A stretch of DNA of 64,000 nt. Source: Akkermansia muciniphila (GTDB lineage Bacteria > Verrucomicrobiota > Verrucomicrobiia > Verrucomicrobiales > Akkermansiaceae). The notes under the pieces were generated by a model. That model was not told the origin of the DNA. It made no database searches and was given only the letters and a program-made list of their open reading frames with translations. The stretch lies in NCBI GenBank assembly GCA_945874895.1, contig CAMCIC010000001.1:62001-126000 (forward strand). Direction: 5' to 3'. Position 1 is the first letter of the stretch. Every line of letters begins with the position of its first letter. Shown here in pieces: positions 4,660 to 37,998 of this stretch. The translations under genes and the position numbers were made by a program.

Positions 4660-5928
4660 ATGAATACCATTATTACCGGCCTGCAATGGGGCGATGAAGG
4701 AAAAGGAAAAATCGTCGACTATCTGACCGAAGATGCCGATGTAGTCGTTCGCTCACAAGGCGGCAACAACGCCGGTCACACAGTGATCGCCCACGGCAAA
4801 AAATACGTGCTGCACCTCCTACCCTCCGGCATTCTCTGGGATGGCAAACTCAATGTGATCGGTAACGGTGTAGTGCTCGATCCCGTAGGACTCGTTGCCG
4901 AAATCGAAAAAGTCGAGGCGCAAGGCGTGAAGGTATCGACGGATAAATTGTTCATCTCCGATCGCTGCCACATCGTACTGCCTTTCCACAAAGAGCTCGA
5001 TGTCGCCCGCGAAGCCGCCCTCGGCGACCGCAAGATCGGCACCACCAAACGTGGCATTGGTCCCGCTTATGCCGATAAAATCAACCGTTGCGGATTCAGA
5101 GCCGCCGATCTACTACGTCCATCGTATTTCCGTGAGCAGGTGAAACACCGTGTCGCCGATGCGAATCAGGTGCTCGCTCAATTCGATCTGCCACAGTTCG
5201 ATGCCGAGGCCATGGCCGAGGAGGTGCTCAGCGCCTTTGCCCGTCTCGCCCCGCACGTTACGAACGTGATTCCGCTGCTGCACAAGGCGTGGAAAGATGG
5301 TAAAACCATTTTGTTTGAAGGCGCGCAGGGCAGCTTGCTCGATGTCGATTTCGGCACATATCCCTTCGTTACTTCTTCCAACACCACCGCCGGAGGTTCG
5401 TGCACCGGCTCTGGTTTGCCACCCACATCGATCCAACGCGTGATCGGTGTGTGCAAGTCCTACACCACACGCGTCGGCTCGGGACCTTTCCCTACGGGCG
5501 ATGAAGGGCTTTCGCAATACTTGCACGACCTCGGTCGCGAGTTCGGCGCCACGACCGGACGTCCGCGCGGCTGCGGCTGGCTCGATACCGTGCTTCTGCG
5601 TTTCGCCTGCATGATCAATGGCGTCACGGGGCTTGCCATCACCAACCTCGATGGCCTCGATGAATACGCCACGCTGAAGATTTGCACCGCGTATGATGTC
5701 GATGGCCAGATCGTCGATCTCCCACCCGCGGATCGCGATGCTTGGGATAAAGCGGTGCCGATCTACGAAGAACTGCCCGGCTGGCAAGTCGATACTACCG
5801 CCTGCCGCGACTACAACGATCTACCCGCCAACGCTAAGGCCTACCTCACCCGCTTCGCTGAGCTATGCGGCGCCCCTGTCGCCTTCGTCGGCGTAGGTCC
5901 GGATCGCGCGCAGACCATTGTGGTATGA
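4660..5928 (+). CDS. purA: Adenylosuccinate synthetase
   Basis: Converts IMP, aspartate and GTP to adenylosuccinate, the first committed step to AMP. The 422-residue length is normal. The N-terminal GTP-binding loop GLQWGDEGKGK is followed by the catalytic GGNNAGHT segment; the IMP-binding TTKRGIGPAYADK and the C-terminal GPDRAQTI are all present. ATG 4660 is preferred over the TTG immediately upstream because family members start directly at this point. It follows carA by 27 bp. The stop codon sits at the edge of a palindromic repeat. Confidence 0.97.
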   Translation: MNTIITGLQWGDEGKGKIVDYLTEDADVVVRSQGGNNAGHTVIAHGKKYVLHLLPSGILWDGKLNVIGNGVVLDPVGLVAEIEKVEAQGVKVSTDKLFISDRCHIVLPFHKELDVAREAALGDRKIGTTKRGIGPAYADKINRCGFRAADLLRPSYFREQVKHRVADANQVLAQFDLPQFDAEAMAEEVLSAFARLAPHVTNVIPLLHKAWKDGKTILFEGAQGSLLDVDFGTYPFVTSSNTTAGGSCTGSGLPPTSIQRVIGVCKSYTTRVGSGPFPTGDEGLSQYLHDLGREFGATTGRPRGCGWLDTVLLRFACMINGVTGLAITNLDGLDEYATLKICTAYDVDGQIVDLPPADRDAWDKAVPIYEELPGWQVDTTACRDYNDLPANAKAYLTRFAELCGAPVAFVGVGPDRAQTIVV

Positions 5929-35960: not shown

Positions 35961-36206
35961 ATGAAACGAGTGGATCACAACGACGTCGAAAAACTCAGCC
36001 GTGGCCAAGCGACCAAGGCAAAAATCGGCAATCGTAGCATCGGTCACAGGCTAACGGAAAAGGAGCGCATCCTGTTTGAAGCGGCCAAACGACAAGGCTA
36101 CCTGAAAATCCCCCACTCAGGAGTGAGACGTAACGTCATCCGAATCTACCAACTGTGGTGCGAAGTGGAAGCTCGCACGTGCTTGATCAAGGAAGCGGGT
36201 CAATGA
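35961..36206 (+). CDS. Small basic conserved-looking protein, unknown
   Basis: The 81-residue protein is rich in Lys and Arg. It contains KIGNRSIGHRLTEKERILFE and a C-terminal helical SGVRRNVIRIYQLWCEVEAR. It looks like a nucleic-acid-binding mini-protein, but I cannot name a family. ATG 35961 is used; a GTG at 35871, overlapping the menG stop (GTGA), would add 30 residues. The last 20 bp overlap the convergent TrhO-RluA gene. Confidence 0.55.
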   Translation: MKRVDHNDVEKLSRGQATKAKIGNRSIGHRLTEKERILFEAAKRQGYLKIPHSGVRRNVIRIYQLWCEVEARTCLIKEAGQ

Positions 36207-37998
36207 CCGCCCAATCGGGTCGTTCATCCTCAAAACTCAGACGTTGCCCAGTGTGGGGGTGATCGCAGGAAAGGCGCCACGCATGGAGCTTCAGTGGCTC
36301 ATCCTTGCAATCCAGTGTTTGTGTGGCAGCGACTTGTCGCGATAGCAAGTAGGTGGCATCGCCGCAAACCGGATGACCCAGATGCCAAAGATGAACTCGG
36401 ATTTGATTGGTGCGACCCGTAAATAGTGCCGCTTCTAACAAAGCCGTGCCATCATGGAATCGCTTCACAACAGTGAAATCAGTACGCGATGGCAGTCCAT
36501 CCGTTTCATCAATCACGCGCGAACCAGCTACATCCGGGTCAGAACTGATGGGAGCCTCGCAGCAATGCCGCTGCCACTCGGGATGCCCCTGCACCCGAAC
36601 AAGGTAGGTTTTTTCGATCGTCTGCCGCTGGAACTGCCGCTGCATTTTCGCGCAGAGCGGACTCGTGCGAGCATACAATACAAGTCCCGTGGTATTGGCA
36701 TCCAAGCGATGCACTGGGCGCGGCGCAGGGTGAACGACTTGATTGATGATCGATTGCAGTGTGTTCCGGTGAAACCGACCGCAAGGATGCATAGGCAGCG
36801 GCGCGGGCTTGCGTATGACGATGAGCGCGCTGTCTTCATAAACGAAACGGATATCGGCATTCACGTCAGGCTCCGCTGCCAAGGTCATGCGTTGCTCGTA
36901 GCGTTCACCGGCGCGCACGATCTGATCGCCATCGACCACTGCTCCATTCTGATGACGGAATCGGCCCTCGGCTAGGCGTTGGCGCCATTCGTCCTCGCCG
37001 ATGTGGGGAAAAACCCGCAACAGCAAATCGAGCAATTTCCAACCATCGAAATCCTGTTTCACGAATAACGGTCTGAGATTTTCGTATGGCACACTACCGG
37101 GTAAAGGATTCACGACTTTTGCCAAAGCAGCACGGCGTTTTTCCAAGGTCATGGCCATTTTCTGCTCCTCACTGACAAAACAGTAGGGGCAAGACTCCCC
37201 TTCGACATAACGCGGGTCTTGTTGTTCCTCTTCCTCGAGCGGAGCCTGGCAATGGAAACAAATGGCCGAGGGGGTTTCACGCAAACTGGGATCGAGCCCA
37301 ACTCGATGATCGAAGACGAAGCATTCGCCGTCGTAGTGATCTCCCCCCACTTCCTCGAAGTATTTGAGGATACCGCCATCGAGTTGGAAAATGTTTTCGA
37401 AGCCCTGCAACTCCATGTAAGGTGCTGCCTTTTCACAACGGATGCCACCCGTGCAGAAAGTGACAATAGGTTGTTTTTTCATTTCTTCCGGCAGCTTGGC
37501 CACGGCATCGGGAAATTGGCGGAAGGTATCCACACCGATGGGAATCGCGTTGCGAAAAGTGCCGAGCTTGACTTCATAGTCGTTACGCGTGTCGAGCAAG
37601 GTCACCGGGCGTCCTTCATCCAGCCATTGCTTGAGGGTTTGGGCCGGCAGATGGCGCGAGGTATAGGTAGCAGGATCCACCTCGGGCACGCCGAAGGAAA
37701 TGATTTCCTTTTTGATGCGCACCAGCATGCGATTGAAGGGCTGGTGGTCGCTTTCGCTAAACTTGGCCTGAAATTTTTCCAAACCCGGAATGTCACGAAC
37801 GACGGATATCAAGTGATCGATGTCCTCGCGTTGCCCCGCCAGAAACAAATTGATGCCCTCCGTGCTGAGAAGGATGGTTCCCTTCAACTGATGGGCCTTG
37901 CATTCGTGAATCAACTTCGCCCTCCAATCCTTTAGGTTGTCGAGCCGAGCGAAGAGATACCCAGAAATGTTTTGATAGACCGTGTCAGCAGAATTCAT
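36187..37998 (-). CDS. TrhO-RluA fusion: tRNA U34 hydroxylase plus pseudouridine synthase
   Basis: A 603-residue two-enzyme protein. Residues 1-280 are the rhodanese-like TrhO (UPF0176) module: LSTEGINLFLAG, and the persulfide-type Cys in FCTGGIRCEKAAPYMELQGF (C182). A putative zinc site follows, with CxxC pairs CFHC (247-250) and CPYC (270-273). Residues about 320-365 look like an S4 RNA-binding domain (LLDLLLRVFPHIGEDEWRQ). Residues 380-603 are an RluA-type synthase with the catalytic HRLD (430-433), then EKTYLVRVQG and TGRTNQIRVHL. TrhO hydroxylates wobble U34 of tRNA and RluA proteins isomerise U in tRNA or rRNA. The fusion suggests linked RNA modification. Confidence 0.88.
   Translation of the reverse strand: MNSADTVYQNISGYLFARLDNLKDWRAKLIHECKAHQLKGTILLSTEGINLFLAGQREDIDHLISVVRDIPGLEKFQAKFSESDHQPFNRMLVRIKKEIISFGVPEVDPATYTSRHLPAQTLKQWLDEGRPVTLLDTRNDYEVKLGTFRNAIPIGVDTFRQFPDAVAKLPEEMKKQPIVTFCTGGIRCEKAAPYMELQGFENIFQLDGGILKYFEEVGGDHYDGECFVFDHRVGLDPSLRETPSAICFHCQAPLEEEEQQDPRYVEGESCPYCFVSEEQKMAMTLEKRRAALAKVVNPLPGSVPYENLRPLFVKQDFDGWKLLDLLLRVFPHIGEDEWRQRLAEGRFRHQNGAVVDGDQIVRAGERYEQRMTLAAEPDVNADIRFVYEDSALIVIRKPAPLPMHPCGRFHRNTLQSIINQVVHPAPRPVHRLDANTTGLVLYARTSPLCAKMQRQFQRQTIEKTYLVRVQGHPEWQRHCCEAPISSDPDVAGSRVIDETDGLPSRTDFTVVKRFHDGTALLEAALFTGRTNQIRVHLWHLGHPVCGDATYLLSRQVAATQTLDCKDEPLKLHAWRLSCDHPHTGQRLSFEDERPDWAVIDPLP

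Follow-up and report, generated by a model that had tools for sequence, protein, structure and literature searches.

Introduction

TrhO hydroxylates U34 of tRNA. In the E. coli enzyme, mutants identified C200, T201, G203 and R205 as essential, and K112 and R114 are residues of the tRNA-binding sheet (excerpt of PMC6599085). Of the RluA family of pseudouridine synthases, RluA modifies loops with UUXXAAA (Psi32) and 23S rRNA (Psi746), and yeast Pus8 and Pus9 make Psi32 (both from an excerpt of PMC7822408); human RPUSD2, a member of the same family, makes Psi31/32 and some Psi34 in tRNAs (excerpt of PMC12716993). RluC and RluD are rRNA enzymes by their names. Two activities in one protein, at or near the wobble base, are known from MnmC and from other two-domain tRNA-modifying enzymes.

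A gene of Akkermansia muciniphila joins a TrhO to an RluA-family synthase. It lies in the window (the whole stretch of 64,000 nucleotides that was analysed). Judged from the sequences, this conserved domain fusion is real; a literature search aimed at it, covering open papers only, did not find it described.

Architecture of the fused protein

The ORF list and the translation give one frame with no internal stop (Table 1); frame 1 of the plus strand over the same interval holds seven stops. The single 603-residue frame of the first-pass annotation is borne out at the same coordinates, and the strand, which was absent from that annotation, is now fixed as minus.

Table 1. Features of the fused gene. 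Positions are those of the window; residues are those of the 603-aa protein.
Feature	Position	Strand	Basis
Whole fused gene, 603 aa plus stop	36187..37998	-	ORF list, translation
UPF0176_N (acylphosphatase-like), residues 8-99, with R94 and K96	37702..37977	-	Pfam, alignment
Rhodanese domain, residues 119-214	37357..37644	-	Pfam; structure matches 4f67, 9j5o
Active-site loop C182-T-G-G-I-R-C188	37435..37455	-	Invariant in 34/34 fused proteins
Four-cysteine cluster C247, C250, C270, C273	37180..37260	-	Invariant in 34/34 fused proteins
Helical linker, residues 277-296	37111..37170	-	Secondary structure of predicted model
PGxxPYxN element and S4-like domain, about residues 299-372 (marked from 304)	36883..37089	-	Alignment to RluD structure
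RluA-family pseudouridine synthase catalytic domain, residues 381-603	36190..36858	-	Pfam; structure match to RluA 2i82
HRLD motif 430-433, expected catalytic Asp D433	36700..36711	-	D433, Y465 invariant in 34/34

Three Pfam domains score over their cut-offs: UPF0176_N (E 6.8e-24), Rhodanese (E 3.1e-11) and PseudoU_synth_2 (PF00849; residues 392-537, E 3.1e-29, 102.6 bits vs a cut-off of 26.8). Rhodanese_C (PF12368) is below its Pfam cut-off (residues 223-256, 20.8 vs 26.9 bits, first 34 of the 66 model positions). The TrhO rhodanese Cys and the complete HRLD synthase that had been read from the sequence were both recovered, C182 within CTGGIRC and HRLD together with its Pfam domain. The two CxxC pairs (247/250 and 270/273) are present as had been noted and are not specific to the fusion: all four cysteines are found in E. 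coli TrhO and in 35/36 unfused TrhO rows. The cluster possibly binds metal.

An AlphaFold2 model (pLDDT 83.9, pTM 0.53) is mostly confident for the domain folds and not for their relative placing. The model matches (VIA) 4f67 (Z 26.5, 2.7 A, 238 aligned) and B. subtilis TrhO with tRNA-Ala, 9j5o (Z 26.5, 4.0 A, 262 aligned). Residues 375-595 match RluA 2i82 (Z 23.2, within about 2 of RluD and RluC for the catalytic domain; rmsd 2.4 A, 206 aligned), whose RNA is presumably an anticodon stem-loop. Residues 304-603 align to chain residues 2-318 of RluD 2ist (Z 21.6, rmsd 8.3 A, 273 aligned), which are taken to include its S4 domain; the S4-like segment suspected earlier has thus gained structural backing. 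The PGxxPYxN element precedes the S4-like domain in unfused kin of the synthase half too. No RPUSD2 or Pus9 chain is among the structure matches listed; the 14 PDB sequences matched include RPUSD1 and RPUSD4, and RPUSD2, Pus8 and Pus9 are not among them.

Conservation of the fusion

The check proposed with the first reading, whether both domains belong to one protein in relatives, was run, and the fusion of TrhO with an RluA-family enzyme is true. It is found in 10/10 genomes of the genus (own included), as a single match over nearly the whole protein, in 19/38 genomes of the set of relatives and in 22/387 genomes of an even sample of the phylum Verrucomicrobiota. An Akkermansiaceae MAG and Brevifollis gellanilyticus also carry it. 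The search of genome contigs with the single protein matched just two close relatives.

The alignment covers the fused protein of Brevifollis and 33 others from eight family groups, 34 distinct proteins in all. At the level of sequence, the joined form with both active sites complete is conserved across families. C182, T183, G184, G185, R187, C188, the four cysteines, D433, Y465 and GRTxQIR (x being N or H) are kept in 34/34.

The window neighbours of the gene (purN, ubiE, a kinase and a regulator) gave no tblastn match (E 1e-6) at the 33 other distinct fused loci, within flanks of about 0.4-1.5 kb per side at most loci and 3 kb for Brevifollis; the fused gene of the window is about 0.3 kb from ubiE and about 0.2 kb from the kinase. 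The fusion thus stays despite changing surroundings. Matches were found in 181 plasmid records and 71 phage records, none of which covers 80 % of the fused protein. The C half alone matched 157 plasmid records; the best 30 of the 157 are 26-32 % identical, and the annotated ones among these 30 are named RluD or RluA-family/pseudouridine synthase.

One far genome, of another class (G161, locus L056), has the two enzymes as separate neighbours. A TrhO (51 %) and a synthase (41 %) are adjacent there on one strand; the TrhO stop is at 5089-5087, and the candidate synthase ATGs are at 5103 (overlap) or 5070 (gap of less than 20 bases). Among the 36 unfused TrhO loci, L056 alone shows an RluA-family match (E 1e-8) within the flanks searched, whose length varies between loci from almost none to about 4-5 kb.

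The TrhO tree has 71 rows. All 34 fused rows fall, with 19 unfused rows of which 17 belong to one group, into a clade of 53 (support 95/98) that is poorly resolved inside. The fewest changes of state found on this tree are three; a topology that unites the 34 fused rows in a clade of their own is not rejected (p-AU 0.59). A fused genome (G126) and an unfused one (G299) belong to one genus.

The TrhO half

The NCBIfam TrhO model NF001133 is matched with 244.7 bits (cut-off 170). By alignment, CTGGIRC corresponds to C200-C206 of E. coli TrhO; the essential C200, T201, G203 and R205 are C182, T183, G185 and R187, present in 34/34 fused proteins. K112 and R114 of the basic sheet correspond to R94 and K96, with the charge kept in 34/34. 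The N half most likely makes ho5U34.

UPF0176_N is found in 90/387 genomes of the phylum, one copy each. Of these 90, 22 are fused and 68 are without the fusion; the fused form is thus the sole TrhO in 22/22. In the set of relatives, UPF0176_N is found in 31/38, as a single copy in 18/19 fused genomes. G033 has a second TrhO N-terminal part (L168, G033:C4:110500-115000), 60 % identical over residues 8-116; it is cut short, runs into a long N stretch or assembly gap, and is probably broken or an assembly effect. In G308 alone (L064:3385-4983), a TrhO of the same subgroup is joined in one 533-residue frame with a PAP2 phosphatase domain (415-504).

Other routes to modified U34 were compared with the presence of TrhO. 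A U32 protein is found in 37/38 relatives, in its long form (frames 749-962 aa) in 35. Short U32 proteins (frames 428-513 aa) are found in G011, G013, G019, G022, G028, G029 and G031, that is, in 6/7 relatives devoid of TrhO vs 1/31 with TrhO (Fisher p 1.7e-5, or 6.7e-5 when a fragment in G010 is counted, kinship ignored in both tests). No short U32-peptidase frame was found in any of the 19 fused relatives among the 38. This complementarity is consistent with, but does not prove, hydroxylation of U34 by TrhO in the relatives. The NCBIfam TrhP model was run on eight U32 proteins, the short one of G028 being left out; that of G019 alone passes (663.5 vs 534 bits), and the others score 167-197 (five short ones), 126 (the G010 fragment) and 207 (the long protein of the own genome). 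The phyletic argument is weakened by the five short proteins and the fragment, which are far below the cut-off. The short U32 proteins of G011, G013, G022, G028, G029 and G031 may be another type of U34 hydroxylase. CmoB, looked for as a sign of onward conversion to cmo5U, is over cut-off in 4/38 relatives, none of them fused.

The synthase half

In a tree of 81 rows, the 34 fused domains and three unfused kin form one clade of 37 rows (support 100/98); E. coli RluA, RluC, RluD and TruC all fall outside it, and the order inside it is weakly resolved. The first-pass term 'RluA type' holds at family level: the Asp of HRLD (D433), the Tyr (Y465) and GRTxQIR (G528-R534) are all present. It does not hold as RluA proper, the clade being separate and the score with NF007543 being 94.4 bits vs a cut-off of 286. 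Scores with the NCBIfam models of RluC (95.5/378), RluD (92.1/351) and TruC (74.5/328 bits) likewise speak against orthology, as does the separate clade. The whole-protein cut-off of TIGR00005 is narrowly missed (186.9 vs 192.7 bits).

The clade was compared with the RluA, RluC, RluD and TruC groups of the tree. It has a signature: P402, H404, G407-R408, N412 (H in some) and T413 (S in some). None of the four groups has the whole signature; H404 is found in RluC, TruC and RluD, and T413 in RluD.

Unfused kin of the synthase are not beside a TrhO in G019 and G269. In G269 the synthase stands alone, apart from the TrhO of that genome; G019 has no UPF0176_N at all, and TrhP and CmoB are present. 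The halves can thus live apart, which counts against an obligate coupling.

Paralogues in the tree come from some fused genomes, not from all; the own genome also has an RluD-group paralogue (L080). A replacement of RluA by the C half was considered and rejected: the search for RluA orthologues in the 22 fused genomes of the phylum found one clear case, G305 (E 2.5e-101, 69 %), which is fused yet keeps RluA. In eight others among the 22, E 1e-30 is reached only by matches of 38-42 % (frames 304-360 aa); those from G015 and G030 were placed in the tree and are RluD-like. Of the unfused genomes in this phylum sample that share the class or are closer, G022 alone has a clear RluA orthologue (E <1e-80), so the absence of RluA says little on the fusion. 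Three rows of relatives group with E. coli RluA, from the unfused G017, G020 and G022.

tRNAs of the own genome

In the own genome, 36 distinct tRNA sequences were found, 11 of them with U34. U32 is present in 6/11 (Gln, Glu, Leu-UAG, Pro-UGG, Thr-UGU, Val-UAC); a double modification at U32 and U34 is thus allowed by these tRNAs. U32 is not enriched in U34 tRNAs of NYN type (4/5) vs the rest (13/31; p 0.17). tRNA-Ala(UGC) and tRNA-Ile(GAU) are absent from the 36 sequences of this assembly; an rRNA operon missing from the assembly may contain them.

Proposed function and alternatives

Since relatives keep the joined form, one fused enzyme probably makes two RNA modifications, as far as sequences tell. 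The activities of both halves, the tRNA target of the C half and any coupling between the halves are inferred from the comparisons above. The best explanation, with chances only just better than even, is a bifunctional enzyme whose N half makes ho5U34 and whose C half makes pseudouridine in the same anticodon loop. The N half, the cell's only TrhO, would use O2 to make 5-hydroxyuridine at wobble U34 of tRNAs reading NYN codons. The C half, predicted to be an active RluA-family synthase with an S4-like RNA-binding domain, would isomerise an anticodon-loop uridine of the same tRNAs (position 31 or 32 as best guess), and one protein would deliver two changes to one loop. The two halves being coupled on one anticodon arm, as was first suggested, is plausible.

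In favour of a bifunctional enzyme acting on this loop, both halves match RNA-bound structures (TrhO with tRNA-Ala in 9j5o, RluA in 2i82), the two enzymes are adjacent on one strand as separate genes in another class (L056), and human RPUSD2, of the RluA family, acts on tRNA positions 31/32 and 34 (excerpt of PMC12716993). Several points speak against it: the bacterial Psi32 enzyme, E. coli RluA, belongs to a clade other than that of the C half; RluD, which acts on rRNA, has an S4-like domain as well; 68/90 TrhO genomes lack the fusion; G126 and G299 differ within one genus; and U32 is not enriched in the NYN-type U34 tRNAs. The odds that the C half targets the same anticodon loop are about even. 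Its link to a wobble enzyme tips the estimate that way, with rRNA as the chief rival.

That rival is an enzyme that is bifunctional and uncoupled: the C half would modify 23S rRNA like RluC and RluD, and the fusion would merely link the expression of both enzymes. It is a possible, though not a probable, explanation. The alignment of the S4-like domain with RluD and the unfused kin in G019, which has no TrhO, would fit it. The own genome, however, has a separate RluD-group paralogue (L080), the structure nearest to the catalytic domain is that of RluA with RNA (although by a Z within about 2 of those of RluD and RluC), and the conserved fusion to a tRNA enzyme would favour a shared RNA.

The C half could also be chiefly an extra RNA-holding module that aids TrhO, with synthase activity secondary. 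Catalytically inactive E. coli TruA and RluA do keep substrate binding (excerpt of PMC7822408), but binding alone would not demand an Asp, a Tyr and a GRTxQIR that are invariant in 34/34, which makes this explanation unlikely. Less likely still is an N half that is a sulfurtransferase and not a U34 hydroxylase. The best NCBIfam match over cut-off is PRK05320, named 'sulfurtransferase' (residues 9-278, 338.8 vs 331 bits); the TrhO equivalog model is also passed, every TrhO residue found essential is kept, and TrhO is complementary to short U32 proteins in the relatives. A frame or assembly artefact joining two genes has nothing in its favour and is ruled out by 34 distinct proteins that are fused in one frame in different genomes, the window neighbours not being found in the flanks searched at the other loci.

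The bifunctional enzyme with a shared anticodon loop may be taken one step further. The pseudouridine would lie in the same loop as ho5U34, two or three bases upstream of it, and one of the two steps could help or order the other; the synthase half would then found a new bacterial anticodon-loop subgroup of RluA enzymes; this extended form is tentative and rather doubtful.

Comparison with known systems

The conserved fusion points to shared work of both halves. If both modify one loop, nature would here offer an example of two chemically different tRNA modifications that are physically coupled, and the fusion would hint at what an uncharacterised RluA subgroup acts on; were the halves coupled, an O2-dependent change at the wobble base would be made together with one that stabilises the loop. 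If the target of the C half is rRNA, tRNA and ribosome modification would be linked in one protein.

TrhO (YceA/UPF0176; E. coli, and YbfQ in B. subtilis) and the N half have in common UPF0176_N and rhodanese domains, CTGGIRC, the basic tRNA-binding sheet and the four cysteines. TrhO of E. coli and B. subtilis is a stand-alone protein, whereas the 603-aa protein continues into a pseudouridine synthase. The PRK05320 model, matched by the N half, has 280 positions and does not include the RluA half.

RluA, RluC, RluD and TruC share with the C half PseudoU_synth_2, the Asp of HRLD, the Tyr and a QIR-type motif; the S4-like domain is as in RluD. The fused synthase differs from all four by its own clade and its own signature. 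Human RPUSD2 and yeast Pus8/Pus9 are of the RluA family like the C half, but are eukaryotic. These eukaryotic enzymes may share with it an HPxGRxxxNT stretch similar to the clade signature. In MnmC both activities belong to a single pathway and act on the same base, whereas the fusion joins two unrelated chemistries.
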